A stretch of DNA of 64,000 bases from Liopterus haemorrhoidalis (lineage: Eukaryota > Arthropoda > Insecta > Coleoptera > Dytiscidae): assembly GCA_963971575.1 (NCBI GenBank), contig OZ020611.1:6460882-6524881 (forward strand), in the 5' to 3' direction. Under the pieces are notes generated by a model that was not told where the DNA came from, did no database searches, and saw only the letters and a program-made list of their open reading frames with translations. Numbering within the stretch: the first letter of the stretch is position 1; each line of letters opens with the position of its first letter. Below, in pieces: positions 1 to 60,592 of this stretch. Both the position numbers and the translations under genes were made by a program.

Positions 1-922
1 TTGATCCGCACATAGGAAAAATACTAAAACATCTAAAAAACATATCCCCCTTAAAATATAAACAAATATGTGCTCAACGAAAAAAAAAAATATTTTTTTT
101 AAATTCTGCGTAGTGTATCAAATGAAAGTCCTTGGTACGTGGATTAACGATAAAAATTTTATTTTTGCAAAATAAATTATTTTGAGGCGATTTTTGCCAA
201 AATTGTGCAAAAAAAATTTTGTCCCACACCCTGTAGCCCAGATGGTTTAAACTAAAAATCTGAAAAAATTCTCAGTAATGTACATTGGTGTGAACCGGAA
301 TAGTACAACAGGAATTTTTGATCAGATTATTTTTTCGGAAAATAATGCATTTAATGTGTTTTTAACCAAAATATGTTAAATATTTAATTTGCTATGTAAC
401 CCAGTGGATAAGCCAGTGCTCATAGTGATATGCGTTTCGTCATTGGTTTTCTAATTTGCTAAACAGGTAACTTGCGAACTAGAGTTCGAATCCTGTCAGT
501 TTTAAATTTTTGTTTTTTTTTTTGCAGTTTTCTTTTGTTTAAATTATTTTGTCAAAATTCTAGTTATATTTTGGTTGCATTTAATTTTTAAAAGCGTAAA
601 TTTAATAACCAGTGGGAAGTGTTGAAATTATAATTTAATGCTATGTTTGATGTATACGAAATCAGAGGGCGGGGCTAATGATGTAAGCAACCAATAGAAG
701 CCATAGGCGCAATTTTCAAAATCTTAATGAACCTTGCTATGTAAAAAAAATACTGCACATATTTAGAAACTTAAATAATGGTATTAGGCATTCGAATTAA
801 AATTCATAAAAAAATATTTTGACATAAAATTTGTTTTGGCATCCCAAATAACCATCATTCAGTTACTAAATACCTGCAAAACCCTGAAATGTGTGAAAAT
901 TCACACTTCACATCAATTTTTT
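1..922 (+). mobile_element. HINE-A copy A1, cut by the window edge
   Basis: This is the 3' part of the 1.0-1.2 kb HINE-A family, entering mid-element at the segment just 3' of the family's (GTCT)n tract. It ends with the subterminal inverted repeat TACCTGCAAAACCCT (near 871) and the hairpin GTGTGAAAATTCACAC (about 891-906), then CACATCAATTTTTT. The same order recurs in the copies starting at 15538, 24868, 50331, 56268 and 59549. The architecture resembles non-autonomous Helentrons (DINE-1/HINE); no coding capacity is seen. Confidence 0.8.
412..500 (+). promoter_or_regulatory. tRNA-like internal module, variant 1 (in A1)
   Basis: A B-box-like motif GAGTTCGAATCC lies at 482-493 (Pol III B-box consensus GGTTCGANTCC). 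About 50 bases upstream is a weak A-box-like stretch around a conserved TGCGTTTCGTC. The same module sits at the same relative place in the copies starting at 15538, 32981 and 56268. I see no intact cloverleaf, so this is a tRNA-derived or Pol III promoter-like cassette and not a tRNA gene. Whether it is transcribed is unknown. Confidence 0.45.
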
Positions 923-1149
923 CACGTACCCCAGTGCTCCTCCCCTCCTGAATACGCCCTTGAGACAGAGAGATACATAAATACTGGTATAAGGGTTGTT
1001 TGATTATAACTACCAAATTCTAAAAATTTCAAAACTGTTTTTGAAACTAATAAAATATTCGCTGTTAATAAATGTGAAAGTTAAAACAGTAGTTAATTTA
1101 AATATGCAATAATTCCATTGAAAATATTGAATATTTCGCGTAGGCATTG

Positions 1150-1340
1150 TTAAGCCTTTCACAAATATTCAAATGGTGTCAACTATGAGGTCTATTGTTT
1201 CAATATTAGCACAGATATAAAAGAGGTCAAGGGCCCTCTTACCTAGAGTGCGCTCGGAAACAAAACACACAGTTGATGGGGGAATTGAATCCACGACCCC
1301 GCTGAAAGCCGATACCACAGAGCAATGCCGTGATCCCCAC
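1150..1340 (-). mobile_element. tRNA-derived SINE-like element
   Basis: Read on the minus strand, a GCTCTGTGGTATCGG A-box-like motif is followed about 30 bases later by GTGGATTCAATTCCC, close to a Pol III B box. A tRNA-unrelated body follows. This spacing and order is the head structure of tRNA-derived SINEs. The 3' end is unclear and no target duplication was found, so the boundaries are approximate. Confidence 0.45.
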
Positions 1341-1507
1341 GGGTTCAACTATTAATAACAGGGGTTGGAAATGCATTTAACATTTATACGCACCGTTTAA
1401 GGTATTATAATATAATTAAAATTTTATACATTATAATTTAAATCACTAAATTTTTGAACTTCGCCGTTGTTGGCGCACCAAAAATATAACTTTGCAAATC
1501 TCTATAC

Positions 1508-1751
1508 CAGGGCTTCTTAAACTTTTTCATATAGCGACCCCCTTCAAGCCTAGGAAATTTTAAACGACCCACCATGTAATTAAATTAATATTGACCGTAG
1601 ATGTAGGTGTAATATCGCGACATTGTAGAATCTACCTTGTAGATTCTAAATTTTTTTTTATTATTACCCAAAAGTAGCAGATCTTTGCGACTCCCCTTCA
1701 GTAGCCTCGCGACCCCCCGGGGGGTCGGGACCCACAGTTTAAGAAGACCTG
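1508..1751. mobile_element. hAT MITE, 244 bp, exact 8-bp TSD
   Basis: The ends are inverted repeats: CAGGGCTTCTTAAAC on the left and GTTTAAGAAGACCTG on the right. They are flanked by a perfect 8-bp duplication CTCTATAC at 1500-1507 and 1752-1759. CAG...CTG ends plus an 8-bp TSD are diagnostic of hAT. There is no transposase. A small internal palindrome, TAGAATCTACCTTGTAGATTCTA, lies near 1627-1649. Confidence 0.9.
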
Positions 1752-2045
1752 CTCTATACAGGGTAAGGGTACGAACACGTAGAAAGTTCTTGTTCGGCGC
1801 TTGTTGATGTGCGGTTAGTGCAGTGTTTCTCAACCCAAAACGTATCGCGGACCAGTAAAATATATAATTTTCGAACGCGGACCACTAATAATAATTGTTA
1901 GTTCATTTTTTGCTAGAAAACAAATTTATTTAATGTGTTACTAAATACATTTATTTTATTTGTAAAAAATCATAGAAAGTTTACAGAAAATATACAAAAT
2001 ATAAATTATTTACGTAAAAAATGTGCGTAAAAATAACAAAAAAAA

Positions 2046-3034
2046 TGATATGATGTGTGAATTTTCACACATTTCAGGGTTTCGCAGGTATTTAGTAAGT
2101 GAATAATGATTATTTGGGATGCCAAAACAAATTTTATGTTAAAATATTTTTTGTGTTAATTCTAATTCGAATGCCTTATACCATTATTTAGGTTTCTAAA
2201 TATGTGCAGTATTTTTTCTATATAGCAAGGTTCATTAATATTTTGAAAATTGCGCCTATGGCTTCCATTGGTTGCCCCTCTGATTTCGTCTACATTGAAA
2301 CAGAATTAAATTATAATTTCAACAATTTCCACTGGTTATTAAATTTACGCTTTTAAAAATTAAATGCATTTGCCAAAATATAACTAGAATTTAGAAAAAA
2401 TAATTTAAACAAAATAAAAATGCAAAAAAAAAACAAACAAAAAATTGTCTCCTCTCGCAGGGATCGAACTGATTTAGTTGGGTAAGAAGCTAGCGCCATA
2501 ACCACTACACCAGGATATACCTTCTAGTCTAATGTGTTACATACTTATAACTTGTGTACATTATTAGCAAAAAAACACAAAAAATGCGTTTTTTCCAAAA
2601 ACATAATGTGATCAAAAATTCCTGTTGTACTATTCCGGTTCACATCAATGTACATTACTTAGATTTTTTTCAGATTTTTAGTTTAAACCATCTGGGCTAC
2701 AGGGTGTGAGGCAATTTGCACTATTTTGGCTAAAATCACTTCAAAATAATTTATTTTGCAAAAATAAAATTTGATCGTTAATCCACGTACCAAGGGCTTT
2801 CATTTGATACCCTACTCAGAATTTTAAAAAAATATTTTTTTTTTTCGATGAGCACATATTTGTTTATATTTTTAGGGGGATATGTTTTTTAGATGTTTTA
2901 GTATTTTTCCTATGTGCAGGTCAAAGAGTTGTAAGAGCATGTCAAATTTCAACTCTCTAGGTTTAGCCGTTTGGCTACAATTTTTACCGAACAGACGTCT
3001 GTCTGACAGACAGACAGACAGGCAGACAGACGCA
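2046..3034 (-). mobile_element. HINE-A copy A2, 5' end truncated in the microsatellite
   Basis: Minus orientation: the 3' hairpin is near 2054-2072, with the inverted subterminal repeat just after it. The body runs to a short (GACA)n tract at 3006-3032 and stops there, so the 5' subterminal repeat is missing. The copy interrupts the hAT at 1821-3080 and is therefore younger than that hAT. It carries tRNA-like variant 2, unlike A1. Confidence 0.8.
2446..2520 (-). promoter_or_regulatory. tRNA-like internal module, variant 2 (in A2)
   Basis: On the minus strand TGGTGTAGTGGTTATGG matches the tRNA A-box region very well (2496-2512). AGTTCGATCCC (2459-2469) matches the B box. Spacing is tRNA-like. 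Variant 2 recurs at 59980-60060. It shares position in HINE-A with variants 1 and 3 but no obvious sequence beyond the Pol III boxes. Confidence 0.6.
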
Positions 3035-3088
3035 AAAAATACATACAAAACTTTCGCGGACCACCTGTTGAGAAACTCTGGGTTAGTG

Positions 3089-4123
3089 CACATATACAAG
3101 GGTTACCTTTTATCGTTTTACCCAAAGATTTTAAATATTAAAAATGTCTCTCGTCGTGTTCCCAACTTAATGTAATGCAATTACAGCGATACAATTGTCT
3201 TTATCATTCCACTCCATGTTTACTGCTCAACGTTCAGTGACTAATTGATTATAACAATACCACATAGGAGTGGGGATTACCCAAAAAAAAGTTCCAGGTG
3301 TTTTTCAGAATTGTTTAGATTTTATGATTCTCCGAATTTAAGTAACATCAAAAGTTAATGGGAAATCTGAGCAAAATGGCTCCAGTGAATTATAATTCAT
3401 ACCGTATATTTTTTAATTATATTTCATTGACACTTGTGTAGAATAATAAAGTCTCTTCGTCATTTCAAATGGGTTTCTTTAATATTTAATAAACATCGGT
3501 TTTATTTACAAACAAGTTAAAATAATTTTTTAAATAATTTTAACTTTACTAAAATTTTTACCATGAAACTAAATTATATTTAATTACAAAATAATCTTCA
3601 CTATCAGACAATTTTAAAGTTCAAGCACCTGTCTATTAACATGCTTCAAAATTTTCTCAAAAAAATTTACATAAAATGATAATAAACATCACCCTTAAAT
3701 CCCTAAACACAACCACCTGAATTTTTTTATAAATAATAAGAAAAAAATTTGATAAAATCATTCTTTGTTTTAAGTCATCGTTAATTTCTTTGATTTTTTA
3801 TTACTTAATACCTTCAGGGATACTTGGGATTTGGAGACACCGGTTTGTCGGGTTTAAAAGCGCATTCGGCCCTTTTATAGTTGGGTTTAAAACTGAGAAT
3901 GTGTGTGTGCATTCCGCTTAGCAACCTGTAGCTGCAACGCTCGCTCTTGTTGGTAATTAATATTGAAAATTTTATTGCTGTATTAAAACTATTTTCGTTT
4001 TGTTAAAGGCCTAATGATACATGTATTCTTTACCCAATAAAGTCTATAGTGACTAAAAAAAACACAAAATATTGAAATATCGGATGTTATTACTATAGCA
4101 AGTATTGGTATATAAAAAAATTC
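3089..4123. other. no recognisable feature
   Basis: AT-rich sequence with only short chance ORFs. I could not match any part of it to an element family or gene. Confidence 0.4.
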
Positions 4124-4256
4124 CATGTGAAGTGTGAATTTTCACATATTTCAGGGTTTTGTAGGAATTTAATAAGTGTAAGAAGCATATATAATTCTGA
4201 ACGCTTAGGAATATTTGCTCTATAATCACCACAAAATCAATAGTGTTCTGTTAATT
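4124..4256 (-). mobile_element. HINE-A subfamily 2, 3'-end fragment
   Basis: Reads TGTGAAGTGTGAATTTTCACATATTTCAG (split here only for description: hairpin then repeat) followed by GGGTTTTGTAGGAATTTA. Its inner part, containing GAGCAAATATTCCTA on the minus strand, matches the 3' ends at 17490-17636 and 60990-61154. It therefore belongs to the second HINE-A subfamily. It abuts the next HINE-B copy. Confidence 0.6.
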
Positions 4257-4257
4257 A

Positions 4258-4897
4258 TTTTTACCGACCGCCAACATATATAAGGGAGGTATTTTGATCA
4301 TACCGATTTTGACATTTCGAGATTTCGATGGATCTCCACGAATTAAGCTCCCTACATAACGTTTTGACTATTTTTAGCATGATGTCTGTCGGTCTGTCTG
4401 TCCGTCTGTCCGTCCGTCCGTCTGTCCGTCTGTCTGTCTGTCCGTATGCCCGTCTGTTCATCTGTCCGTCTGTCCGTCTGTCCGTCTGTCCGTCTGTCCG
4501 TCTGTCCGTCTGTCCGTCTGTCCGCCTGTCCGTCTGTCCGTCTGTCCGTCCGTCTGTCTGTCTGTGTACACGTGCAGAGCAAATTCGGCTAAAAGGATTT
4601 TTATGAAACTGCATATTTAAGCTTTGGAGATCAATATGCCATTGAGTTGAACAGCTTTTGGTAAAAATCGGTTGACTAAAAATGGGAGTTTACTCGTGTC
4701 GATTTTAAGATTTTTGCGAATATTTAACAAAAGAAAAATATTTCGAAAAAATTTATTTAACAAAAGTTGCTATAAATGCTATAACTAACAACTTTTATTT
4801 GAGACATTTTTTGATAAAACGAAAAAATTTTGAAACATTTATTTTATACAAGTACTTTTTGATGGCGGTCGGTCCTGTGGTAGCCACAGCTGATTTT
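4258..4897 (+). mobile_element. HINE-B copy B1
   Basis: Near-complete copy. It starts TTTTTACCGACCGCC, has a GTCY tetranucleotide tract at about 4386-4566, and ends GGCGGTCGGT followed by the hairpin CTGTGG-tag-CCACAG and TGATTTTT. The 10-bp ends are exact inverted repeats. Subterminal repeats, a 3' hairpin and a T-run are the DINE-1/HINE (Helentron-related) layout. ORFs spanning the tract are artefacts of a period-4 repeat. Confidence 0.85.
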
Positions 4898-4985
4898 TAT
4901 TCATTATTTGGGTACTAAGAGCTTCCATTTAAATTTTTTAAACAATAATTTACAATAATAAAAAGGGGCCAGAAGTAAAAGTATT

Positions 4986-5265
4986 TTAGATTAGATTAGA
5001 TTAGATTAGACTTTATTTAGCGAATTCTGCTGAAATAATATTTACGGCATTGGTCCATCAGACCTATCGTGCAAGGTACTACGATTGACAAATAAGTATA
5101 AGTTCTGTAATATCTTTGAAATTATTTTGCAATGATCCAATATTAATGCGGACACCGTTATTTTGGACGTTTACCATTGCTGATAGTTCTGTGATGCATT
5201 CGTCAAAATGATATGCGGTATGGGATTTATCGACGATGTAACAACGTGCCCCCGTAACAACTAGA
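4986..5265 (-). mobile_element. 3' end of a non-LTR retrotransposon with pentanucleotide tail
   Basis: On the minus strand an AATAAAGTCTAATC context leads into several copies of the pentamer TAATC (4986-5010). A polyadenylation-like hexamer next to a short tandem tail is typical of 3' ends of CR1/Jockey-type elements. No RT coding is left, and I can place no clear 5' boundary. Confidence 0.55.
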
Positions 5266-5460
5266 GTTGTATAAGCATGCCAAATTTCAACTTTCTATGT
5301 GTTCAGTTTGGCTACAATTTCTATCGTACAGACGGACACATGAGTGACGTTATAAGGTTTTTTTGGTGGTCATACCAACAAAACTGTAAATATGATGTAA
5401 ACTGTGAATTTTTACACATTTCAGAAGTTCATAATTATTAGTACGTAAATAATATTAGAG
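5266..5460 (-). mobile_element. degenerate HINE-A, internally deleted
   Basis: Contains GTATAAGCATGCCAAATTTC and TTTGGCTACAATTT, which flank the microsatellite in HINE-A. A corrupted 5' end (GTTATAAGGTTTTTTTGG) and a corrupted 3' hairpin (CTGTGAATTTTTACACATTT) follow. The tetranucleotide tract and the body are gone. Divergence suggests an older insertion than the full copies. Confidence 0.6.
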
Positions 5461-9334: not shown

Positions 9335-10016
9335 TATCATAATCCAAACACTTAACAACTGTATTACCAACTGTAACAGTATTTATGGCAGGGCTAGGTA
9401 CATTATAAATTTTAAAAGCTGGCATAAAATGACAGCAATTTCCTATTATGTAATTATAATTTATATTTTAAAATCGACCTGTAAATTATCGCATTTATTT
9501 TATTGGCCATATTGTTGTAATATCCAATAGAATTAATTAAAAGTATTATTGTGTTACTAAGATACTAATTATTTATTTTAGGCAGATATAATTCAATATT
9601 TGATGGTGTACGTGGGCGCCTAGGTTGATAAATCAAAATTTTTCCATTCATTACTTCTCAGGCATTGTTATGATAATGCAGTACTCGATACTGTTTGCAT
9701 CAAAACATACCAGTCTCTCTGAATGAATACACAACTACCATACACCATACCTAATCATTATTTCAATCTTCATGCTGTATTTCAGATTTAAATACCGACT
9801 AATTCAGTTATTTACTATAATGTACTGAACGTACATTGGGAAAGCTGTCGAGGTTTTCGATAGTGGGGATGATAATTCAAGAACTCAATTTGAATCATGG
9901 TGCTATGCAAAGATTGTTACAAACTTTTTGTTAATGACGTGATTTGTTTTTAACTTTTCTAAAATATAGTGATATAATATGATATAGTGATATAGTAATA
10001 TAATACAGTGTACGTG
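9335..10016. other. no recognisable feature
   Basis: AT-rich; no family resemblance, RNA gene or extended ORF found. Confidence 0.35.
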
Positions 10017-10610
10017 AAGCGTGAATTTTCACATTTCAAGATTTCGCAGCAGTGGCGTAGCCAGGATTGGCGTAGCCCATTTTGTCTTGGGGAGGGTCGA
10101 ATCCAATTTCGAGGGCATACGGGCCGCATACGGCCCTCAACCTCATTTTTGTGGCCCCTGAAGCGGTAATCAAAATCACTTGAGCTTATTTAGGGGAAAA
10201 ATATATTTAAAAATGTAAAATGTACTCTCTTCCCCTTTTCTGTTTATAAAAAAATGTTAAGAAACTCTACGGGATATTTAATGTTCCGTCACTGCTTATC
10301 ATTTTGTATGTAAAATAGACTGCGACCCAAATAAGTTCGACACCCCTGCTGTTGGATATTGATGAATAATTCCATTATTTATTGATAAAAAAAATGTAAT
10401 TGTTAATCCATGTATCAAAAACTACACTTGATTTTTTCTTCGATGAATACATATTTATTTATATTTTTCGCGGGATATATTTTTAAGTCTCAATATTTCT
10501 CTTACTTATGTTCAGTTCTCTAAATCAGTCGCTTGGCCACAATTTGTAGCGAACGAACAGACTCATGTGAAGGAATAAGGGTTTCTTGATTATACCTACG
10601 AAAACATAAA
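10017..10610 (-). mobile_element. old HINE-A with an internal foreign insert
   Basis: The 3' hairpin end (GTGAAGCGTGAATTTTCAC) is followed at about 10052 by an unrelated GC-richer block up to about 10345. The element resumes with TTGTTAATCCATGTATC, CGATGAATACATATTT and GGCCACAATTTGTAGCGAAC, ending at TTATACCTACGAAAACAT. The microsatellite is lost and divergence is high. The insert begins CAGTGGCGTAGCCAGGATT and ends GTTCGACACCCCTG, both hAT-like. I found no matching TSD, so its class is tentative. Confidence 0.55.
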
Positions 10611-12054
10611 AATAACATGTAAATATGCATTTTCTGTTAATTTCAACACTAATCATAATAAAATATAGCTTCTTATTATTATTGTAAAATACATAAGTTA
10701 TTTTGCTGTACGATTATGATAAATTTGTTAAATTTTCATTTCATCGGACCTTCAGAGAGAGGGGGGGAGTCACAAGCCCCTCTGTTGTTCTCCACTGTTG
10801 TTTAGTACAACTTATCTGTCAGTCCTTTACACTTATCAGTCCTTTTTGTGTGTAAAACATCATAATTTTAAGAATACCTAAGAAGATATTGATATTCACA
10901 TTTATCTATAAAATAAAACCAAATACCGATTTTAAGAGCGCGATTGTCTCCAAAACTACTCTCTTTATTATATTTGTACTATTTCTACTCTATTTCATGT
11001 TTGAGGTGTCATTTTAAAATTATATTCTGAAGGTTATACCGAAATCGAATTTCCACTTTATCTTATCTGAATCGAGTAATTAGTTGTTTAAAACAGTTTT
11101 ATCATTTGACCGAATGTTTTAGTCGATGCGTCAGGGGGAAAAAGGATCAACGCTCCCCTTCATATAATTCGTTGGAGCATATTTGGAAAGTGATGTATTT
11201 TCACTTGAACAATAATTATGTCACTTTATCAAGAGTAGGCAACCTTAAAAAAATGTTTATTTGTACGAAAAAAAAAAAAAAAATTAAGTGCCAATATTGT
11301 TAACAATGAAGTAATTTAAAAATTAACTACTGTTGTGGTTAACAAATTTTATCTTCAATTCCCCGAGCAGCGCCGTGTAATCTGCTGGTGCTGGGAGGAG
11401 CTCAGGCCCCCCTTGTCAAAAACAGAATTGTTTTTGACAATATTTGAATTTTGGCACAGTTCGTATATTAGTGACTTTATGTTTCACTTTAACACAATCA
11501 GCGTATGGCGAATCTATTGCTTGATGAAAGTATATAGTGTAAAATATACATGAGCCATTATCATTTATAGTTGATGTTGTGAAATTTGTTTTCTCGGAAT
11601 AATCATAGTATTATTTAGGTCAGGTCGGCCAACAAAATCAATTAAATCTGTATTATTGACAATCGCACTGGCGCTCGTTTCCTGTCCCGCGAATCACATT
11701 CACCTCCCACCTCCCACCTCCCACCATCCTATCACCACTTTTTATCGCTTTATTAATGACAGAATTAATTTTCCACGATGTTTATCAAACATTTTCCATA
11801 AAATGCCCGTAATTTGTAGTGCGCATTTTATGATCATTAATTACTTTATATAAGGTGTTCCTAAATTACTCCCAAATGTTGCAATCCATACCTATTTATT
11901 AAATATAGATTTACAAAAGTAATACGTACACAAATTGTTGAATTTGACTAACACTACCGTTCATCCGATTTTGATAATGCGTCTTGTTACACAGCAATTT
12001 CAATAAACGAGGTTTTGGCCAGTAAAAACATTCCTGTGGCTCCTCAGCCTCTTT
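10611..12054. other. no confident feature
   Basis: AT-rich sequence with scattered short GC-rich words (for example near 10750-10790 and 11350-11410) that could be hAT end relics. No paired ends or TSD were found. Short ORFs (11106-11303, 11335-11553, 11656-11853) are unlike any known protein. Confidence 0.3.
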
Positions 12055-14601: not shown

Positions 14602-15537
14602 GTCTGTTATAAAAAAGAAAAAATCATAATCTTAAAATGAAGTAAAAATTAATTATAAACGGTGATGTTTTTGTGAAAAAATCAAAAGTATAAAAAAGAA
14701 GCATGTAAAAAGGAAGGAAGCAATTATTTCCAAATAATTGATAATTATCTACCAAATATAATTAGTATATTCGTAACATTTAGTACCTTCTTTTAATTAA
14801 ACAAATAGTCTACCCAATTATATTTCACATCTGTGCGCCACTTGGCTTAAATGGGTTAAGCACATAGAAAAGAAAAATGCGAACCCTTTTTTATGGTGAG
14901 AAAGTCTGAGAAATACAATTTATGGACCCGTTAGGTTAGTCCCGTTAGTTGGCCATTAGATGCAATTCCAGGCAATCTACCTAAGAGAGAAAGAACCCTT
15001 TGCTGAATCTCATAGCGGCGGTAGAATGCCCACAAAAAAATATATGCGAGAACACCGTTGCGATTTTAAAGGATTGGTAATATTATACTTTAGAACAGGT
15101 TGGTTTTACAGTTGTTTTCTAAAGAAATTTCTTGGAAATTAGGATAGATTAGCAGGAATTGTACCTGAGTTCATTTGACATAAGATCATATTTATTATCA
15201 TCGCCATAAGTAGCCTAACAGTAAATGCTTAAATTAATTATTTTACATGACAGATTAGAATTTTATTTATTTACAATCTGCTCAAACTTCGTACGGTTTT
15301 TTGTTACATACATTTTCAATCTCAAGTAGTACAGAAAATAATCGTTTCTTTATTAACAGAGACTTGAAGCTAAACCCGAAACCAAACCGAAAACCCGAAA
15401 AAAAACTGTATTTTTTGTGAAACTGAACCGTAACCTGTTCGGGTTCAGGTTCTATTATTATTAACCCGTAACCATGCATTTTTAACAGGTTCAAGAAATT
15501 ATTATATACTTAACATTTGACATTTACCTAAGACAAA
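14602..15537. other. no recognisable gene; low-complexity AACCCG-rich block
   Basis: Mostly featureless. Bases 15360-15475 are rich in AAACCCGAAACC / CCGTAACCTG words and resemble the inside of the hAT MITE at 56933-57443. They may be a relic of that family, but no ends or TSD were found. Confidence 0.35.
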
Positions 15538-16515
15538 AAAAATGAATGTGAAGTGTGAATTTTCACACATTTCAGGGTTTCTCAGGTATTTAGTAACTGA
15601 ATGATGATTATTTGGGATGCCAAAACAAATTTTATGTCAAAATATCTTTTTATGAATTTTAATTCGAATGCCTAATACCATTATTTAAGTTTCTAAATAT
15701 GTGCAGTATTTTTTTATATAGCAAGGTTCATTAAGATTTTGAAAATTGCGCCTATGGCTTCCATTGGTTACTTAAATCATAAGCTCCGCCCCTCTGATTT
15801 CGTATACATTCAAACATAGAATTAAATTATAATTTCAACACTTCCCACTGGTTATTAAATTTACGCTTTTAAAAATTAAATGCAACATTTACCATAATAT
15901 AACTAGAATTTTGACAAAATAATTTAAACAAAATAAAAATGCAAAATAAAACAAAAAAATTAAAATTGATAACAATCGAACTCTAGTTTGAAAATTACAA
16001 AGCAGCGACGAAACGCACAACGCTACGAGCGCTTACTAATGTACTGTGTTACATAGCGAATTAAATATTTAACATATTTTAGTTAAAAACACAAAAAATG
16101 CGTTATTTTCCGAAAACATAATATGGATAAAAATTCCTGTTGTACGATTCCGGTTCACACCAATGTACATTACTTGGAATTTTGTTCAGATTTTTAGTTT
16201 AAACCATCTGGGCTACAGGGTGTGGACAATTTTTTTTTTGCACACTTTTGTCAAAAATCGCTTCAAAATAATCTATTTTGCAAAAATAAAATTTGATCGT
16301 TAATCCACGTACCAAGGGCTTTCATTTGATACCCTACTTAGAATTATAAAAAATATTTTTTTTTTTCGATGAGCACATATTTGTTTATATTTTTATGGGG
16401 ATATGTTTTTTAGATGTTTTAGTATTTTTCTTATGTGCGGGTCAAAGATTTGTATAAGCATGCCAAATTTCAACTCTCTAGGTTTAGCCGTTTGGCTACA
16501 ATTTTTACCGAACAT

Positions 16516-16549
<34 letters not shown>

Positions 16550-16600
16550 GACAAAATGACGGTATAAGGGTTTTTTGGTCATACCTACAAAACCCTAAAA
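15538..16600 (-). mobile_element. HINE-A copy A6, complete
   Basis: Runs from the 3' hairpin (TGTGAAGTGTGAATTTTCAC near 15548) through the subterminal repeat to a (GACA)n tract at 16516-16548. It then ends with GACGGTATAAGGGTTTTTTG and TACCTACAAAACCCT. Both 15-bp subterminal repeats are present in inverted orientation, and it carries tRNA-like variant 1. It abuts the subfamily-2 copy that follows. Confidence 0.85.
15968..16040 (-). promoter_or_regulatory. tRNA-like internal module, variant 1 (in A6)
   Basis: The B-box-like AGAGTTCGATT (minus strand, about 15974-15984) is preceded by the conserved GTGCGTTTCGTCG block. The B box is partly decayed here (GATTGTTATC in place of GATTCCTGTC). Confidence 0.4.
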
Positions 16601-17636
16601 ATACTGAGAGTTCAAAAAAACACATCCCGAGATAAATATAAACAATTGAATGAAAAAATTATATTTTTTTAAAAATTTTGGGTGGCATATCAAATGAAGA
16701 AAATTTTTATTTTTGAAAAAAAGACTTTTTAATGGGATGTTTGCCAAAAATATGTCAAAAAACTTTTGTTTCTCCCCCTCCCCCCCAATCTCTCAGAGCG
16801 GTTGATCTAAAAATCTAACAAAAATCTCCATAATGAACAAAGAAAGGATTTTTTTTGTGACGTCGATAAAAAAAATATTTAAAAAAAATTATTGTATGGT
16901 AACAAAAGAAAGCTCTTAGGACCTAGATGAGGAACGAAAAGCAGAATTTTAAAATTAATTTTTTCAATACGATTTTAGCCAGAAATGTGCAAAAAAGTTC
17001 TTGTCCCGCCCCCTTTTACCCAAAGAGGTTAAACTAAAAATCTGAAAAAATTATAGATAATGTATATTGATATTGAGGAATTTTTGATCCAATTGCGTTT
17101 TTGAAAATAATTGCAGTTTTTGTGTTTTTGACAAAATTAATTATTGTTTTAATTCATGGCTAAATTATGGCTAATGATGTTATATATATATTTTTTTATT
17201 TATGGCTATTAAGATAATGGGTGTCTTTTTTTGAAAAGAAATGTATAATAAAAACAAATTAACAGTTGAGGACTGAGTTTTGAACACCACACTACACTCT
17301 ACACTGTACAATAAAATCATTTATATTAATAAAATACTTATAAAACAAATAACACATTGTTAATAGTGAGAAATACGTTTCTGAATTTAAAAAAAAAATA
17401 AGCCTTTTATCAATATATTTCTTATTATTCGAAATGCAGAAAAAAACGCTGGGGTTATTGGTAAATTGTTTAAATTTTGTTTGAATAAAATTATTAATTA
17501 ATCACATCAAAATCATTTAATGTGATTATAGAACAAATATTCCTGGACATCCAGTATTATGTTGGCTTCACTTATTAAATACCTACAAAACCTTGCAATG
17601 TGTGAAAATTGACACTTCACATAATTTTTTTAAACA
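16601..17636 (+). mobile_element. HINE-A subfamily 2 copy, 5' truncated
   Basis: Begins AATACTGAGAGTTCAAAAAA, the segment that follows the microsatellite in the copy at 59279. It continues with a body only loosely similar to subfamily 1 (for example GTGCAAAAAAGTTCTTGTCC, AACTAAAAATCTGAAAAAAT). It ends with TACCTACAAAACCTTGC and the hairpin region TGTGAAAATTGACACTTCAC. The 5' end and tetranucleotide tract are lacking. No tRNA-like module is visible. Confidence 0.65.
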
Positions 17637-18649
17637 GTTGTAGAAGAAAGTGAATACGAAACCCTAAAAATGAGAAGACAGGTAAAAATTGCAAACGTAA
17701 TTCCGTAATATTCTTTTTTAACACAAAACTGTCCCACTAAAGTATTTTTATTGTAAAATGCAAAATTCACGTCCAACAAAAAACACCTTTCCTTTGTGAC
17801 ATTATGTAGAATTAACCCTAAAAATACTCCAAGGATAGTGTGGCCATGAAAATAAACGCAAGGGTTGAATGTGCAATAACTTTGCTCAACAACCAATAAA
17901 ACTAAAACTTTTTACTGGCGAAACCTTTTTAAAGGGTTGCCTTCAGTCCTCAGAATTGCACTATAAAATTGCCCAACTATGTTGTAAAATTCCACCTTGC
18001 AGTTTTCAAATGTTTGCGGCTAACTTTTGCGTGTATTCATTGCACTTTTATGAGCTAAAAGGGTTTGTGCCTAATGGACAATGGTGCATGGTTACCAGAA
18101 TATTGCATTGATTTTTTTGGTTTCAAGGATTTTAGCTTTTAGCATTGAATATAGAGACTTGAGTTCTATATTCATTGCTTTTAGGAAATTTTGTCTTTAT
18201 TGTGTCAACATTATGGTATGCATCATTTTTGGCTTCACAGAGATCAATGGAAGGTAGAAGCCGCAAAAATTAGTTTAATAGAAGCTAAGTAACATACTAG
18301 TAATGAGAGGCACCTGATTACAGTTGGTGGGATATGTAATGAAGATGAAAGTGGACAGAATGATAAAGATGATCTGGAACTAATACTAAACAACCATGGC
18401 TGATAAAAGATTTCACAAAAGAGAGAGAGGTCAAGTACCATTCATAGCTCCAATTTAGTTTAGTGCATAAGCATAAAACACTATTTGAGCCGTTGAGTTT
18501 GAAAGTGAGATAAGTCCATTTTGTGAAAAATATGAGTTAATGTTACGTCTTATTACAAATTGAGATTAACTTCATGTTTTTAATTATTTACAATAAATAT
18601 CGACTCAATATCAGTACAAATTTGTTACTGTTAGGTCATGATTATGGGG
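17637..18649. other. unassigned; one small hairpin
   Basis: Contains ORFs 17630-17896 (minus) and 17869-18111 (plus) of no known type. A hairpin at 18142-18180 has arms GCATTGAATATAGA and TTCTATATTCATTGC. Confidence 0.35.
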
Positions 18650-24867: not shown

Positions 24868-24915
24868 ACGGGTTTTGTAGGTATGACCAAAAAACCCTTA
24901 TACCGTCATTTTGTC

Positions 24916-49796: not shown

Positions 49797-50330
49797 TGCA
49801 AACAAGATTATAATGTTTTTTGTAATAATCTCAAAATTTCTTTACTCTGACATATCACGTTTTGATTCTTACGACTTCATATAACCTAACATGTGTGAAA
49901 ATTCCCTTCATATCAATTGTGTATTTGTTGTTCTGTAAAATGGTTGGTATTTAGTGAAAGTAGTTAGCATGCTTCTGTCGTTGTGTTTGGTTCTAGTTTA
50001 CGTGGTAAGTGGCACTTTAAAAAGTGTGAATCGACGTGAAATTTAGTGGATTACGTTTCGTTTCAGCATGATCCACGATCTGACCTTAATATTAAACACT
50101 TCTGATAAAACTGTTATTTCAACAATTTCATATCTGATTGACACAACACACACTACACGTACTTGCCTTGCATTCTACCGATAGTAAACAAAACAAAAAT
50201 ACACTGTTTACCACTTAACATTTATAACAACTACGAGCCCAAGCCCTTATGTATTCGTACTAAGCATTTGAAACTATTAAACATAATCTATATAATTGAT
50301 ATATCGTAAAGGAGACAGTATATAAAAAAA
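49797..50330. other. unassigned, with a degenerate HINE-A hairpin near 49889
   Basis: ACATGTGTGAAAATTCCCTTCATATC resembles the HINE-A 3' hairpin (described in two parts: ACATGTGTGAAAATTC and CCTTCATATC). No more of the element is present. Confidence 0.4.
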
Positions 50331-51391
50331 TTGATGTGAAGTGTGAATTTTCACACATTGCAGGGTTTCGCAGGTATATAATAAGTGAAGGCGGCATGCT
50401 GAGTGTGTAGGACAAATTTTGCTTTGTAGTAACCACGGCAAAATGAACGATCTTTTTAAAATAATTTATCGTCTGTTAATCTCAGCTTTAAAAACAAATT
50501 TTATGTTAAAATATTTTTTTGTTAATTTTAATTCGAATACCTAATATCATTATTTAGGTTTCTAAATAAGTGCAGTATTTTTTTTATATAACAAGGTACA
50601 TTAAGATTTTGAAAATTGGGCCTATGGCTTTCATTGGTTGTCTTAAATCATACGCTCCGCCCCTCTGGCTTCGTATAAATGACACAGAATGAAAATATAA
50701 TTCCAATTGGTTATTAAATTTACGCTCTTGAAAATTAAATTCAAAATGTGCTAAAATATAACTAGAATTTTAACAAATTAATTTAAACATAATAAATATG
50801 AAAAAAAAAAAACAAAAAATAAAATTGACTCCACAAGCCAGGAACGAACCTGTGTAGTGAATAACGATCCTGTGTGGTTGTCGAGCAACTGAGCCACTAG
50901 ACCACCAAACGCTTATCAACTTAGTGTCTTATAAGAGTATAACATGTATGCATCGTCAACCAAAATACACAAAAAATGCGTTATTTTCCGAAAACATAAT
51001 CTGATCAAAAATTCCTGTTGTACTATTCCGGTTCACACAATTATACATTACTTAGAATTTTTTCACATTTTTAGTTTAAACCATCTGGGCTACAGGGTGT
51101 GGGACAAAAATTTTTTTGCACAATTTTGGCAAAAATCGCCTCAAAATAATTTATTTTGCAAAAATTTTATTTTGATCGTTAATCCACGTACTAAGGGCTT
51201 TCATTTGATACCCTACTCAGAATTTTAAAAAAATATTTTTTTTTTTCGATGAGCACATATTTGTTTATATTTTTAGGGGGATATGTTTTTTAGATGTTTT
51301 AGTATTTTTCCTATGTGCGGGTCAAAAAGTTGTACAAGCATGCCAATTTTCAACTCTCTAGGTTTAGCCGTTTGGCTACAATTTTTACCGA

Positions 51392-51425
<34 letters not shown>

Positions 51426-51426
51426 C

Positions 51427-51489
<63 letters not shown>

Positions 51490-51537
51490 GACAAAATGAC
51501 GGTATAAGGGTTTTTTGGTCATACCTACAAAACCCTA
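50331..51537 (-). mobile_element. HINE-A copy A10, complete
   Basis: Runs from the hairpin (AAGTGTGAATTTTCACAC) to GACGGTATAAGGGTTTTTTG and TACCTACAAAACCC, with the longest (GACA)n tract in the window (about 51393-51488, one GACC interruption). It belongs to the same sub-subfamily as A8: both have the GGCGGCATGCTGAGTGTG segment and tRNA-like variant 3. Confidence 0.9.
50827..50910 (-). promoter_or_regulatory. tRNA-like internal module, variant 3 (in A10)
   Basis: On the minus strand AGTGGCTCAGTTG (A box, 50886-50898) and CAGGTTCGTTCC (B box, about 50841-50852) are kept. They agree with A8 in sequence and spacing. Confidence 0.6.
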
Positions 51538-51834
51538 AATATATATATTGTAAACTATAGTTAAATAGAATATATTTTACTAGGGGCCTCAGCCCGACCT
51601 AGCCGGGCTTTTTCCCCTACGTTGTTTACGGTATTTTGCCGCACTTGTCGATTATAAAACTCGTCACTTCGCGACTTGTTTTTTGTCTGTCACGTGGTTA
51701 TCGAAGTGCCGGATTCGGGCGCGCCCGCAGAACGTCCACGAAATGTCAAAAATTATTAGTATTATTATCATTAGCCTATAACAAACACGAAGTTCTGAGC
51801 AATTTAACGTTGAAATAATTTTTCAAATTGGTGG

Positions 51835-55421: not shown

Positions 55422-56267
55422 TTGTATATAAAAAAAAAAACAAATCATCCTCAACGTCTAACGTCCCAAAATTGTGAACCGTATAATTCCCTGAGCAATT
55501 TTGTGTAATTTCGTAAATTAGCTAAAAATTTAAAAGCTACCAGTCACTATAAATCTCCGTGGCAGTTCTCTCCCACGACCGAGAATTCATCCAGACAATC
55601 AGACAGATCAGATAATTTGTGATGGGGGTGAGGCACACCTGATGCAAAAGTCACTCAGTTCGCAAGTAACGGTACCTCGTCTCACTGAATAACGGGGCTT
55701 TTGGCATTCTACCTGCTCGACTATTTAACATCTTTTGTTATGTTTTTTGTGCTGATTTAGAACGCTGTGGGAAATCACAGAAATGGCCAGAGATATGCAT
55801 TAATCATTTTAGCAAACAAGCTTGGATTATGTCAGAAATTTGGTATATATGACAATATTTGTTGGCACGGCATGGGGCATGAAATATGATTTTGATATTT
55901 TTTGAAAAGAGGGTTTGATATTATTTCATATATTTTAGCTAATTAAGACATTTGAAACCGAAGATGTTTATCAATTTATGTTGAAATTATCTATAAAGTT
56001 AAAAATAGATTATCCCATGAGAATTTTTACCCCATGCAAATTTGAAACGTCTTATTGACATACTTTACGAGCATTTTTGCTACAAAAAAGAAAATAAAAA
56101 ATCTTCCAGTTGGTCTACAATATGTTTAAAATTTTAGCACTCGGGAATTTTGTGCACAGCGTTCAACAAAACAGTAGACAAACACAAACTATGTAATACC
56201 AAAAGGTGGAAAGCAGAATGACGCATGCAGTTATATGTGTTTACTTAAAATCCAGAAAATTTAAAAA
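55422..56267. other. no recognisable feature
   Basis: Some GC-moderate sequence at 55560-55730 remains unassigned. No ORF of interest. Confidence 0.35.
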
Positions 56268-56700
56268 AAATTGATGTGAAGTGTGAATATTCACATATTT
56301 CAGGGTTTCGCAGGTATTTAGTAACTGAATGATGATTATTTGGGATGCCAAAACTTATTTTACGCCAAAATATTTTTTTATGAATTTTAATTCGAATGCC
56401 TAATACCATTATTTAAGTTTTTAAATATGTGCAGTTTTTTTTTATATAGCAAGCAAGGTTCATTAAGATTTTGAAAATTGCGCCTATGGCTTCCATTGGT
56501 TGCTTAAATCATAAGCCCTGCCCTCTGATTTCGTATACATTCAAACATAGAATTAAATTATAATTTCAATACTTCCCACTGGTTACTAAATTTACGCTTT
56601 TAAAAATTAAATGCAACATTTACCAAAATATAACTAGAATTTTGACAAAATAATTTAAACAAAATAAAAATGCAAAAAAAAAAACAGAAAAATTAAAATT

Positions 56701-56775
56701 GACAGGAATCGAACTCTAGTTTACAAATTACAGAGCAACGACGAAACGCATTACGCTACGAGGGCTTACTTATCT
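56701..56775 (-). promoter_or_regulatory. tRNA-like internal module, variant 1 (in A11)
   Basis: B box AGAGTTCGATTCCTGTC on the minus strand (56703-56719) is well kept. The upstream part is CCCTCGTAGCGTAATGCGTT. Confidence 0.5.
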
Positions 56776-56932
56776 ACTGTGTTACATAGCGAATTAAATA
56801 TTTAACATATTTTAGTTAAAAACACAAAAAATGCGTTATTTTCCGAAAACATAATCTGATCAATAATTCCTGTTGTACTATTCCGGTTCACACCAATGTA
56901 CATTACAATTTTTTCAGATTTTTAGTTTAAAC

Positions 56933-57443
56933 CAGGGCTTCGAACCGTTATCATTTTCGTTTCGGTTTTCGTTCCGGTTCAATTAAAAAAATATACATCG
57001 GTTCGGTTCCGGTTTTGGTTCCGGCAAAAATAACGGTTTTTTTCGGTTTTCGGTTCAGGTCCGAGTGATAAATTTTTAAATGCTTTTATTTGTATTACAA
57101 ATTTATTTTGTACTATAATTTAGAAGAACATTTTATTCCTTATTCTGTGATAATCATACCAAGGTCGCTGACAGGGGGGGGTTCTGGGTGTTCAACCCCC
57201 CTTCCCCCGAAATAATAGAAGCGCTTTTTTTTACTTATCAGTTAAAAAATTACGAATTACGATTTTTTTCTGCTCATCAGTTTAAAAAATAATCTTAAAT
57301 AAAATGTATTTTATATTCACTCCCAAAAACATTATCTGAACCGAAATAAACCGATATTTTTTTTTCGGTTCAGTGTTCGGTTTTCGTTTCGACAAAAATA
57401 ACGGTTTTTTCGGTTTTCGGTTCAGTTCCGGTTCGAAGCCATG
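56933..57443. mobile_element. hAT MITE, 511 bp, exact palindromic TSD
   Basis: Ends CAGGGCTTCGAACCG and CGGTTCGAAGCCATG. The 8-bp duplication GTTTAAAC lies at 56925-56932 and 57444-57451. The interior is rich in CGGTTTTCGGTTC words near both ends. It inserted in a conserved GTTTAAAC site of HINE-A, which dates it after A11. Confidence 0.92.
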
Positions 57444-57759
57444 GTTTAAACCATCAGGGCTACAGGGTGTGGGACACAATTTTGGCACAATTTTGGCAAA
57501 AATCGCGTCAAAATAATTTATTTTGCAAAAATAAAATTTTGAACTTTAATCCACGTACTAAGGGCTTTCATTTGATACCCTACTCAGAATTTTAAAAAAA
57601 TATTTTTTTTTTTCGATGAGCACATACTTTTTTATATTTTAGGGGGATATGTTTTTTAGATATTTTAGTAATTTTCCTATGTGCGGGTCAAAGAGTTGTA
57701 TAAGCATGCCAAATTTCAACTCTCTAGGTTTATCCGTTTGGCTACAATTTTTACCGAGC

Positions 57760-58250
57760 AGACAGACAGACAGACAGACGGACAGACGACAAAATGACGG
57801 TATAAGGGTTTTTTGGTCATACCTACAAAACCCTAAAACAAAAAGTTTTGATAATACAAATTTCAAAATCATCAAGAATTGTTAGACAGGGACGCAGCAG
57901 TACGTATGGATTTTGTTTTGAAATGTTTGAAAAAATTAATTCCGACCCAACAATGTTTCAAAGAATTTTACAGACAGACAGACAGACAGACAGACGACAA
58001 AATGACGGTATAAGGGTTTTTTGGTCATACCTACAAAACCCTAAAAATAAAAGTTTTGATCATACAAATTTCAAAATCATCAAGAATTGTTAGACAGGGA
58101 CGCAGCAGTACGTATGGATTTTGTTTTGAAATGTTTGAAAAAATTAATTCCGACCCAACAATGTTTCAAAGAATTTTACAGACAGACAGACAGACAGACA
58201 GACGACAAAATGACGGTATAAGGGTTTTTTGGTCATACCTACAAAACCTA
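57760..58250. repeat. 208-bp tandem duplication of HINE-A 5' end plus flank
   Basis: The unit consists of (GACA)n, GACGGTATAAGGGTTTTTTG, TACCTACAAAACCC and then about 126 bp of flanking sequence (AAAGTTTTGAT to AAAGAATTTTACA). The flank occurs twice (about 57840-57970 and 58048-58178). The HINE-A 5' end occurs three times. Offsets are 208 bp with only one or two differences, so the duplication is recent. Confidence 0.9.
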
Positions 58251-58257
58251 AAAAGAA

Positions 58258-58308
58258 ATGTAAATAATTAACACGAAAAGCGAGGAACTACATGGTACAC
58301 TAAAAGTT
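58258..58308. repeat. 50-bp direct repeat, left copy
   Basis: AATTAACACGAAAAGCGAGG then ACATGGTACACTAAAAGTTT. A diverged copy at 59223-59272 lies immediately before another HINE-A 5' end. Confidence 0.7.
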
Positions 58309-59222
58309 TAATTTTTAGAGAGTATATTATTTCTTATATTTTCTTCCCGTTCAATACATAATTTCATGCATAACATATAATCACATAAGCAGATATACCC
58401 TACACCTTCCCTATTTTACCTCTTTTGTGTATAAAATTTTTCCCACCCATCTTAATATCTTTTCATGGCTGGTTTGATCAATTCTTGTATAAAACACCTT
58501 GAGGGATTTATATTCTATTCGCATCATTTATATAAAATGTTACCAAAAAAATGTTATAAAGGATTCAAGTGAAGGTTGCACCTGTACACAAGGCCCACAT
58601 ATTTCATATGAGCGGCCCTATAACCATACCGAGCCTATGTCTATGTCTATCCAGTCCCAGCCATTTTGTAGGGCTGACTTGCGATAATGTTGTGATATTT
58701 TTTATCTAGCCAGATCTGTTGGTTTCTTTATGTTTGGGTCGCTATTACGAACGGGTTAAATTTGATGAAGATGCATTTTATGGGGGTAGATTCAGGTTGC
58801 TAAGTCTGACCTTCAGATTTGTAGGGTAGTGGACGTAGAATTTTTGGGGCACATTTTAATATTTAAAATGATAAACTGAGAAATGCTATATGCACTTTTA
58901 ATTAAATTGTTCGTCTTGGTTTCTATTAAGAGAATATTTAGACAATTAAAAATATTAATCAGCTTAATGCACAGCAAAAAATTCATAAGTGTAAAAGTTC
59001 ATTTTTAGTTTGGTTAAAATTTTAGTGTTAGAATTTTTATTTAAAAAAAGTAAAAATTTCACTATTTTTAACCAAATCACCGTGCAAATCTTCATTTATT
59101 CAGAAAGTGTCATTTTTATGAAATATTACTTTTTCAGTGTTAAAATTAACACTATTTTCTAATACTATAATTTAACCAGTATGTAAGTGTAAACTTTGCA
59201 CTAAATTTAACCAAACAAGAAA
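58309..59222. other. unassigned, with a loose inverted repeat
   Basis: GTTTGGTTAAAATTTTAGTG (about 59010-59029) pairs with CACTAAATTTAACCAAAC (59199-59216). It is perhaps a 0.2 kb MITE. The rest (58490-58700) holds ORF 58499-58687 of no known type. Confidence 0.45.
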
Positions 59223-59272
59223 TGTTAATTATTAACACGAATAGCGAGGGATTTCATGGTACACTACAAGTT
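59223..59272. repeat. 50-bp direct repeat, right copy
   Basis: TATTAACACGAATAGCGAGG then TTCATGGTACACTACAAGTT. It mirrors 58258-58308 at about 85% by eye. Confidence 0.7.
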
Positions 59273-59278
59273 TCTTTT

Positions 59279-59475
59279 TAGGGTTTTGTAGGTATAACCA
59301 CCGAAAAAACCCTTGTAACGTCACTCTTGTGTCTGTCTGTCTGTCTGTACGGTAGAAATTGTAGCCAAACGGCTTAACATAGAAAGTTGAAATTTGGCAT
59401 GCTTATACAACTCTTTGACCCACATATAGGAAAAATACTGAGAGTTCAAAAAAATACAGCGCAAAAAATTCATGG
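59279..59475 (+). mobile_element. HINE-A subfamily 2, 5' end
   Basis: AGGGTTTTGTAGGTATAACC, a very short (GTCT)n, GTAGCCAAACGGCTTAACAT, GTTGAAATTTGGCATGCTTA, and AATACTGAGAGTTCAAAAAA, which also starts the subfamily-2 copy at 16601. The 3' end is probably 60949-61154, with A13 inserted between. Confidence 0.7.
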
Positions 59476-59548
59476 CTAAATTATTGCTAATAATTTTAGG
59501 TTTTTTTGTATTTATAGTGTAAGATAGTGCGTGTTTTCTTTTTAATAA

Positions 59549-60592
59549 AAAAAATTGATGTGAAGTGTGAATTTTCACACATTTCAGGGTTTTGCAGGTA
59601 TTTAGTAAGTGAATGATGATTATTTGGGATGCCAAAACAAATTTTATATTAAAATATTTTTTTTGTTAATTTTAATTCGAACGCCTAATACCATTATTTA
59701 GGTTTCTAAATATGTACAGTATTTTTTTTTATATATATGTCAAGGTTCATTAAGAATTTTAAAAATTGTGCCTATGACTTCCATTGGTTGTTATAAGTTC
59801 CACCCCTCTCATTTCGTGTACATTGAAACAGAATTAAATTATAATTTAAACAATTTCCACTGGTTATTAAATTTACGCTTTATTAAATTAAATGCAACAT
59901 TTGCCAAAATATAACTAGAATTTTGAAAAAATAATTTAAACAATATAAAAATTGAAAAAAAAAACAAAAAATAATATTGTCTCTTCTCGCAGGGTTCAAT
60001 CCCTTTCGGATCGAGTTACTTGGGTGAAACGCCAGCGTCAAAACCACTACACCAGCATACACGTTCTATTGTAGCGTGTTACAAAGCTATAACTTGTGTA
60101 CATTATTAGCAAAAAATCACAAAAAATGCGTTTTTTTCCAAAAACGTAATCTGATCAAAAATTCCTGTTGTGCTATTCCGGTTCACACCAATGTACATTA
60201 CTTAGAATTTTTAGTTTAAACCATCTGGGCTACAGGGTGTGGAAAATTTTTTTTTTACTCTATTTTGGAAAAAATCGCGTCAAAATAATTTATTTTGCAA
60301 AAATAAAATTTAGATCGTTAATCTACGTACTAAGGGCTTTCATTTGATATACTACTCAGAATTTAAAAAAATATATTTTTTTTTCGATGAGCACATATTT
60401 GTTTATATTTTTAGGGAGATATGTTTTTTAGATTTTTTAGTATTTTTCCTATGTGTGGGTCAAAGATTTGTATAAGCATGCCAAATTTCAACTCCCTAGG
60501 TTTAGCCGTTTGGCTACGAATAGACAGACAGACAGACAGACGACAAAATGACGGTATGAGGATTTTTGGTCATACCTACAAAACCCTAAAAA
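59549..60592 (-). mobile_element. HINE-A copy A13, complete
   Basis: Runs from the hairpin (AAGTGTGAATTTTCACAC) and GGGTTTTGCAGGTATTTAG to a minimal (GACA)4 tract, GACGGTATGAGG and TACCTACAAAACCCT. It carries tRNA-like variant 2, as does A2. It appears nested in the subfamily-2 copy. Confidence 0.85.
59980..60060 (-). promoter_or_regulatory. tRNA-like internal module, variant 2 (in A13)
   Basis: Minus strand: TGGTGTAGTGGTTTTGACGC (A-box region, 60035-60054). A B-box-like AACTCGATCC lies at about 60008-60017, with a second GGGATTGAACCCTGC closer to the end, so the 3' half is partly rearranged against A2. Confidence 0.5.

Follow-up and report, generated by a model that had tools for sequence, protein, structure and literature searches.

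What is the tRNA-like block that occupies one fixed place in the centre of HINE-A, a rolling-circle-type repeat of the dytiscid beetle Liopterus haemorrhoidalis? A 64,000-nucleotide (nt) stretch of its genome (assembly GCA_963971575.1, contig OZ020611.1, positions 6,460,882 to 6,524,881; hereafter the window) contains eight aligned copies of this element, and an earlier reading made from the letters alone (the sequence-only reading) had seen in them three unrelated cassettes in one slot. We consider it probable that the centre of HINE-A carries one ancestral tRNA-derived unit of RNA polymerase III (Pol III) type, which diverged in place and has a putative role via Pol III or TFIIIC. To judge from the comparisons below, descent of all cassettes from one ancestral unit is very probable; that the unit works in Pol III transcription or TFIIIC binding has somewhat less than an even chance. 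The three cassettes of the window are best read as three of many diverged lineages of one unit.

A Pol III-type unit in the centre of HINE-A

HINE-A is a non-autonomous, Helentron-like element of about 1.05 kb. It begins with TTTTTA-GGGTTTTGTAGGTAT, which holds the subterminal inverted repeat (subTIR), followed by a GTCY-type microsatellite, the left arm, the block, a T-run and the right arm. Its 3' part consists of an imperfect inverted subTIR, the palindrome GTGTGAAAATTCACAC and a T run. The block has a length of 118–137 nt in the eight window copies and comprises a neck and the tRNA-like unit with an A box and a B box; the T-run comes next. All eight slots listed in the sequence-only reading are real and lie within a few bases of where they had been placed (variant 1 in A1, A6, A9, and A11; variant 2 in A2 and A13; variant 3 in A8 and A10). 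The arms are colinear on both sides, as had been stated, with the exceptions of A1 (cut by the window start), A9 (no outer right arm), and A11 (nested insertion). Left arms are 90.5–95.6% identical in all 28 window pairs, irrespective of the cassette, and divergence between variants is sharply raised from the block's left edge up to the T-run, where it drops again.

By structure HINE-A is a HINE, i.e. a non-autonomous Helentron of DINE-1 kind, because subTIRs, 3' palindrome, T-run borders, and the GTCY-type microsatellite in the left part are all present. The reverse complement of the 15-nt 5' subTIR was found with at most 2 mismatches within 60 nt before the 3' palindrome in 67 of 78 full elements and in 0 of 78 shuffles. 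These 78 elements have a median length of 1,038 nt, measured from the subTIR through the palindrome motif. The palindrome GTGTGAAAATTCACACTTCACAT has 12 matches in the window at up to 3 mismatches (0 expected). The window and the sampled loci contain 98 five-prime and 120 three-prime ends that are sharply bordered at T runs. The occurrence of a Pol III-like unit at a fixed internal place of a rolling-circle-type element was borne out.

The genome holding the window (1.02 Gb, 91 contigs) was searched with a pattern of two exact anchors and a free slot between them, blind to the slot content, at gaps of 60–90, 165–195, and 196–226. This gave 12,008 exact-anchored slots of filled length (3743 + 3613 at the gap of 165–195; 2369 + 2283 at 196–226) and no matches with reversed-pattern controls. 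Exact anchors are biased to well-preserved copies: five of the eight window copies match exactly (A2 and A11 at gap 165–195; A8, A10, and A13 at 196–226), while A1 and A9 are missed even at 2 mismatches per anchor. The total number of HINE-A copies in the genome is probably in the tens of thousands. Of the 127 slots that were read, 107 were located with anchors carrying no more than 2 mismatches each (pattern sample, 94; A8-like loci, 7; window, 6), and 20 were handpicked for unusual or rarer heads. Loci L009–L098 come from the first 6.7 Mb of one contig (C1), so that type frequencies are not genome-wide; L002–L008 were selected by similarity to the A8 left arm, and L099–L118 were handpicked from the first 11.1 Mb of C1.

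Slots were scored against consensus A and B boxes with 17 constrained positions, a match being at most 2 mismatches. Such A+B matches were present in 93 of 127 slots, whereas neither the 127 dinucleotide shuffles nor the 127 reverse strands had any. By sample, the matches number 69/94 (pattern), 15/20 (handpicked), 5/6 (window), and 4/7 (A8-like). Flank controls gave 2/107 in left arms and 0/106 in right arms, with 72 of 107 left-arm pieces reaching 3 mismatches. In 111 of the 127 slots the distance from B box to first TTTT is 6–20 nt, and 123 have a T-run of at least 7 downstream. Thus, the Pol III type-2 layout, with A box, downstream B box, and T-run terminator on one strand, is found. The A+B signals are Pol III-like and not chance, since shuffles and reverse strands lack them entirely. 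Accidental matches in an AT-rich repeat would agree with the window alone, where B boxes with as many as 2 mismatches number 26 and thus stay at background level (mean 22.9, maximum 33 in 20 Markov sequences); when a single mismatch is allowed, 8 remain, including 3 in slots, versus 1.6 (maximum 4). The larger set refutes this explanation, whose probability is negligible. A fall of the boxes to background in more copies, which the sequence-only reading had named as fatal to its proposal, did not occur.

The same reading had ascribed a B box to each cassette and good A boxes to variants 2 and 3. B boxes are indeed present, although those of A6 and A13 have decayed and that of variant 3, GGTTCGTTCC, is one base short. 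Variants 2 and 3 do have A boxes, and variant 1 also has one (type consensus TAGCGTAGTGC, 1 mismatch). In variant 3, homology with the A boxes of the other types falls on TGGTCTAGTGG, which lies 8 nt upstream of the TGGCTCAGTTG given in that reading and overlaps with it. In all three window variants the A box is 26–27 nt from a common neck motif (counted by eye). Each of the 24 types distinguished has an A box with at most 2/7 and a B box with at most 2/10 mismatches, taking the best match within the search range. Apart from the blocks, the A8 left arm holds TAGCCCAGATGG, a full A-box consensus match, at 25284–25295.

Compared with a set of 30 tRNAs, 10 of the 24 type sequences scored better than all of 200 shuffles, and 18 had no more than 3 shuffles as good. 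Use of this set as a yardstick is supported by a tRNA-Val of the host, which agrees with its counterpart in the set at 63 of 73 aligned columns. The host gene, tRNA-Val(TAC) at L003:3292–3366 (−), about 1 kb from a HINE-A copy, also served as positive control for ARAGORN, which recognised it. Taken singly, the variant 1 blocks of the window are weakly tRNA-like (shuffles as good, of 300: A1, 63; A6, 169; A9, 26; A11, 1), while those of variants 2 and 3 are more so (A2, 0; A13, 1; A8, 2; A10, 1). The resemblance lies mostly in the boxes. Folding of the units was no better than that of shuffles (mean z −0.26 versus −1.80 for the tRNAs of the comparison set). The unit is a promoter-like tRNA remnant and not a tRNA gene; tRNA models do not recognise a cloverleaf in it.

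Among individual types, the v8 unit (L030:1500 region) displays a perfect 7-bp end pairing, GTATCCT/AGGATAC. No other of the 24 types has as low a folding score (z −2.2; x03 is next with −1.9), and v8 may be the one closest to the tRNA from which the unit descends. In the v4 copies L022 and L030, what looks like an acceptor stem has changes that match each other; neither this nor the end pairing of v8, both seen by eye, was generalised.

Relations among the cassettes and divergence of the block

Single linkage at one threshold resolved the 107 anchored slots into 13 groups, 9 of which have two or more copies; with finer labels, 10 groups were compared as consensus sequences. An alignment of 30 representatives reads by eye as a graded series, with L098 intermediate between v1 and v5, and L116 combining a v1b/v7 middle with a v2/v8-like tail. 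The necks, which are not part of the tRNA-like unit, are similar between variants 2 and 3 (z 2.5–5.2) and between variants 1 and 2 (2.2–3.6 for A6, A9, and A11; 1.5 for A1–A2), and a profile of variant 2 also recovers variant 3 slots (E 2.7e-5 and 1.2e-4). With graded groups, intermediates, and homologous necks, the three unrelated cassettes originally proposed are not upheld in the larger set. The outcome that the sequence-only reading had itself set against its proposal, namely that the variants are diverged forms of one ancestral sequence, largely applies; some replacement by tRNA may nevertheless have occurred, for example between the boxes of v4b.

The excess divergence is specific to the slot. 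For left arm/neck/unit/right arm, the consensus sequences differ by 0.6/1.8/7.8/0.5% between v4a and v4b, 0.9/5.5/13.6/3.1% between v1 and v5, 2.6/4.3/18.2/5.2% between v6 and v7, and 2.9/9.1/14.3/3.5% between v2a and v2b. The right arm of v3 is 11–14% from the rest. Because types had been defined on the block, pairs of copies were also compared without grouping, using 99 of the 107 anchored slots (L002–L008 and copies with short flanks were excluded). Blocks at least 15% apart were found in 122 of 579 pairs whose neighbouring flanks are both within 6%. In the mirror controls, the piece examined was instead a flank piece lying between two similar ones; it diverged by 15% or more in 0/158 and 1/73 pairs. 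The contrast of fixed to private changes (block 33:161, flanks 18:522, p 3e-9), for which copies more than 15% different in an arm were excluded, is partly circular, the types having been defined on the block.

Private changes are even across the element. Pooled over eight groups, those of non-CpG type number 57/3219 (1.77%) in the unit, 43/2723 (1.58%) in the neck, 261/14402 (1.81%) in the left arm, 148/9455 (1.57%) in the right arm, and 53/3175 in the T-run; the corresponding CpG-type counts are 58/2149, 32/1186, 136/5765, 79/3515, and 30/812. Copies more than 15% different in an arm were excluded from these counts, which kept 12 of 17 copies of v1, 4 of 7 of v2a, 3 of 6 of v7, and all of v4a, v3, v6, v4b, and v5. 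Since the pooled private changes are even, the excess in the block lies between amplifying lineages and was, as a rule, not built up after insertion. Because of the same evenness we reject an overall increase of mutation in resident copies, with v4a as the exception.

Pol III transcription has been reported to raise mutation in tRNA genes, and mutation of the unit accelerated by its own transcription would suit both a fast stretch that consists of neck and unit and ends at the T-run, and the raised private rate in the unit of v4a. The pooled private changes are, however, raised neither in the unit nor in the neck. Although such a process could act mainly in a few active elements, we hold it to be highly improbable.

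Over the same 99 copies, the distances of neck, cassette, and right arm co-vary (Spearman 0.61–0.70; 0.70 for neck and cassette), the largest value of 200 permutations being 0.09. This upholds the earlier statement that cassette type tracks sub-subfamily. Among the 84 of 99 copies that were classed, no neck class has a foreign cassette, a count that is circular as the labels derive from the whole block.

These data bear directly on exchange, in which the resident unit would have been replaced repeatedly, wholly or in part, by sequence of tRNAs or short interspersed elements (SINEs) or by units of older HINE lineages through recombination at the boxes. Cassettes that differ between flanks within 6% of each other are what exchange would produce, as are private changes without an excess in the unit; for the full v2 units the best-scoring tRNA is Val or Glu, and the inter-box stretch of v4b resembles tRNA-Thr. 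Homologous necks, the constant register of the A box, intermediates among the types, and the linkage of neck and cassette, together with the circular count of foreign cassettes, argue against it. So do the facts that no unit was recognised as a tRNA and that only 1 of 114 unit matches in 286,674 bases, situated at a locus edge, lacked both HINE anchors; these loci were chosen around HINE-A and are thus biased, and a site matched by two models was counted twice. We regard exchange as quite unlikely.

Nor do the slots look like a preferred acceptor site, which the sequence-only reading had offered together with an exchangeable cassette. Short slots (gap 60–90) number 24 in the whole genome. Their heads, visible over 80 nt, are broken at many differing points, and because the junctions differ they look like later deletions, not like an empty site. 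The rarity of short slots at the gaps searched, 24 (60–90) versus 12,008 (165–226), and their differing junctions led us to reject an empty acceptor site; constant register, intermediates, and the co-variation of neck, cassette, and right arm likewise speak against exchangeability. A SINE inserted independently several times was rejected in view of the constant register, the homologous necks, and the absence of a clean empty site among the slots seen.

Possible role of the unit and comparison with known systems

The preferred reading, one tRNA-derived unit diverged in place and putatively functional, implies the following course of events. The ancestor of HINE-A would have gained the unit ahead of the split into the present subfamilies and would have retained it as a fixed part, not as an optional insert; nearly all sampled copies have it. 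Lineages may then have amplified in turn, each carrying its own version of the unit, with boxes and T-run persisting and spacer and tRNA fold being lost. The unit might give rise to a Pol III transcript of roughly 75–110 nt ending at the T-run, or else bind TFIIIC. Only the promoter skeleton would matter in either case, and the spacer would be free to change in amplifying lineages. If the unit has a role, the most economical assumption is that it acts as DNA, through promoter or TFIIIC function.

Several results weigh against this reading. The necks of variants 1 and 3 are weakly similar (z 1.1–1.5), and the right arms of v4 types are 17–24% from those of other types, with many gaps. The left arm is nearly unlinked to the rest of the element (rho 0.06–0.13, 99 copies), so that recombination at the left edge of the block, or near-invariance or constraint of the left arm, must also act. 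Private changes of non-CpG type are more frequent in the unit of v4a (16/739) than in its left (29/3274) and right arms (18/2085), though not in the pool of groups. Between the boxes, no type of the 24 except v4b, with its likeness to tRNA-Thr, beats all of 300 shuffles. The search of the slots for tRNAs and Pol III boxes that the sequence-only reading had suggested succeeded for the A+B pair, which is above chance, but not for tRNAs: Rfam gave no tRNA match at the gathering score, at E up to 10 (three slots) or at E up to 5 (18 loci), and ARAGORN at default called none in the window. Finally, in a test of McDonald–Kreitman kind, box changes between types were no more consensus-preserving (32 consensus-changing, 54 neutral) than private ones (15 and 19). 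Selection on the boxes is not demonstrated, because Fisher's p is 0.54.

The last result fits a relic, i.e. a tRNA or SINE head captured by the ancestor, which has no role and drifts as a tolerated spacer while the arms, needed for transposition, stay near-constant in a few amplifying elements. The lack of a tRNA-like folding excess and the small distances between left arms of the type consensuses (0.6–7.2%) also favour a relic. It has to account for the A and B boxes kept by all 24 types and for the downstream T-run in nearly every slot, and it would require an approximately 4- to 14-fold constraint on the arms over several hundred non-coding bases, as estimated from the unit/arm divergence of four sister pairs. 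The relic shares the descent part with our best explanation and differs from it only in function, so that the confidences overlap; a functionless relic is almost as likely as a working unit. A stronger dependence of HINE-A on its unit is also conceivable. Here, central transcription or TFIIIC binding would aid amplification by opening the chromatin, exposing a strand or supplying a short RNA. Successive lineages would replace each other by diversifying the unit between fixed boxes. We consider this rather unlikely.

HINE and DINE-1 elements are described by their subTIRs, 3' palindrome, insertion between T's, microsatellite, and lack of coding capacity (PMC4067079, PMC2374699). HINE-A has in common with these elements the subTIRs near both ends, the 3' palindrome, T-run insertion, conserved terminal parts on either side of a variable centre, the lack of coding capacity, and a GTCY-type microsatellite in the vicinity of the 5' end. 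The passages of PMC2374699 on DINE-1 of Drosophila melanogaster and on recent D. yakuba copies present elements without Pol III promoter signals or tRNA likeness. HINE-A differs from DINE-1 as portrayed there by the tRNA-derived Pol III-type unit in the centre of nearly all sampled copies. Cg_HINE of the Pacific oyster, in the parts of PMC7492417 relevant here, shares subTIRs, palindrome, and GTCY-type microsatellite; its centre is changeable too, but consists of a satellite-like tandem array, and the word tRNA is absent from the main text. In Arabidopsis, tRNA genes are likewise associated with Helitron annotation, a tRNA-Cys cluster overlapping annotated Helitrons; unlike HINE-A, this is one local cluster that, by the relevant section of PMC10701932, was not reliably predicted as Helitron by the authors' tools. 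By the same account, a Helitron with a tRNA as cargo would be without precedent.

With tRNA-derived SINEs, HINE-A has in common a degenerate tRNA-like head, A and B boxes, the missing cloverleaf, and a very high copy number. In contrast to these, its unit does not form the 5' end but sits several hundred nt inwards (595 nt in A8), in the middle of an element of about 1.05 kb that has HINE ends, and no SINE body was recognised. No Helentron or HINE with a Pol III unit was found among titles and abstract openings of the open-licence literature, which is not proof of absence in print. Pattern scans of IMG/VR and of genome contigs revealed no relative of HINE-A; records of its own or a very near genome were possibly excluded there.

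Some animals have very common repeats of the HINE/DINE-1 kind, although such elements are small and passive. Thousands of HINE-A copies with a tRNA-like promoter at one place form a natural variant set for asking whether Pol III signals aid rolling-circle spread. The same set poses the question of why one 130-nt stretch differs between amplified lineages several times more than its surroundings.

Copies in the window and neighbouring features

The HINE-A copies and their blocks are listed in Table 1, together with a distant relative, A7. No good A+B pair was present in A7 past the end of its homology to HINE-A, the best having 7 mismatches within 150 nt and 5 within 450 nt.

Table 1. Positions of HINE-A copies, their central blocks, and a distant relative in the window (mm, mismatches).
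Feature	Position	Strand	Details
A1, HINE-A variant 1	1–922	+	alignment; truncated by window start; 3' palindrome 891–913
A1 block	364–498	+	neck, unit 416–498; A box 423–433 (2 mm); B box 483–493 (1 mm); T-run 513–523
A2, HINE-A variant 2	2030–3037	−	alignment
A2 block	2446–2570	−	unit 2446–2519; A box 2502–2512 (0 mm); B box 2460–2470 (1 mm); T-run 2439–2444
A6, HINE-A variant 1	15533–16602	−	alignment; subTIR 16577–16595
A6 block	15967–16084	−	unit 15967–16032; A box 16015–16025 (2 mm); B box 15972–15982 (3 mm, decayed)
A7, distant HINE relative	16597–17640	+	about 68% identical to HINE-A left arm; homology ends at left edge of block
A8, HINE-A variant 3	24870–26060	+	alignment; 5' subTIR 24870–24888; palindrome region 26023–26045
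A8 block	25414–25550	+	unit 25465–25550; A box 25472–25482 (1 mm); B box 25526–25536 (2 mm, one base short); T-run 25557–25562
A9, HINE-A variant 1	32976–33920	−	alignment; inverted 5'-end fragment replaces outer right arm
A9 block	33310–33427	−	unit 33310–33375; A box 33358–33368 (2 mm); B box 33315–33325 (1 mm)
A10, HINE-A variant 3	50324–51543	−	alignment
A10 block	50826–50962	−	unit 50826–50911; A box 50894–50904 (0 mm); B box 50840–50850 (2 mm, one base short)
A11, HINE-A variant 1	56258–57838	−	alignment; nested insertion ~56935–57443
A11 block	56700–56817	−	unit 56700–56765; A box 56748–56758 (1 mm); B box 56705–56715 (1 mm); T-run 56674–56684
A13, HINE-A variant 2	59545–60593	−	alignment
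A13 block	59978–60112	−	unit 59978–60061; A box 60044–60054 (0 mm); B box 59992–60002 (2 mm, decayed)

Owing to the inverted fragment, A9 has 5'-type ends on both sides (32976–33097 and 33846–33920), in opposite orientation. The insertion nested in A11 (56935–57443) is about 500 nt long, rich in CGGTTC-type motifs, and contains 3 of the 8 window B-box matches at up to 1 mismatch. A tandem array adjoining A11 (57762–58258; period 208, 2.4 copies) includes HINE 5' ends and microsatellite.

Elements with HINE-A-like 5' subTIR and/or 3' palindrome ends and other interiors were seen around 4112–5394 (−), at 61160 and below (+), and at 10000–10640 (−). Their interiors belong partly to a second repeat family, and they look like further HINE families with common ends. 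The open reading frames at 31689–32465 (−), 36147–37043 (−), 35113–35667 (−), and 28875–29702 (+) appear by eye to be pieces of putative transposases of mariner/Tc1 and hAT type.

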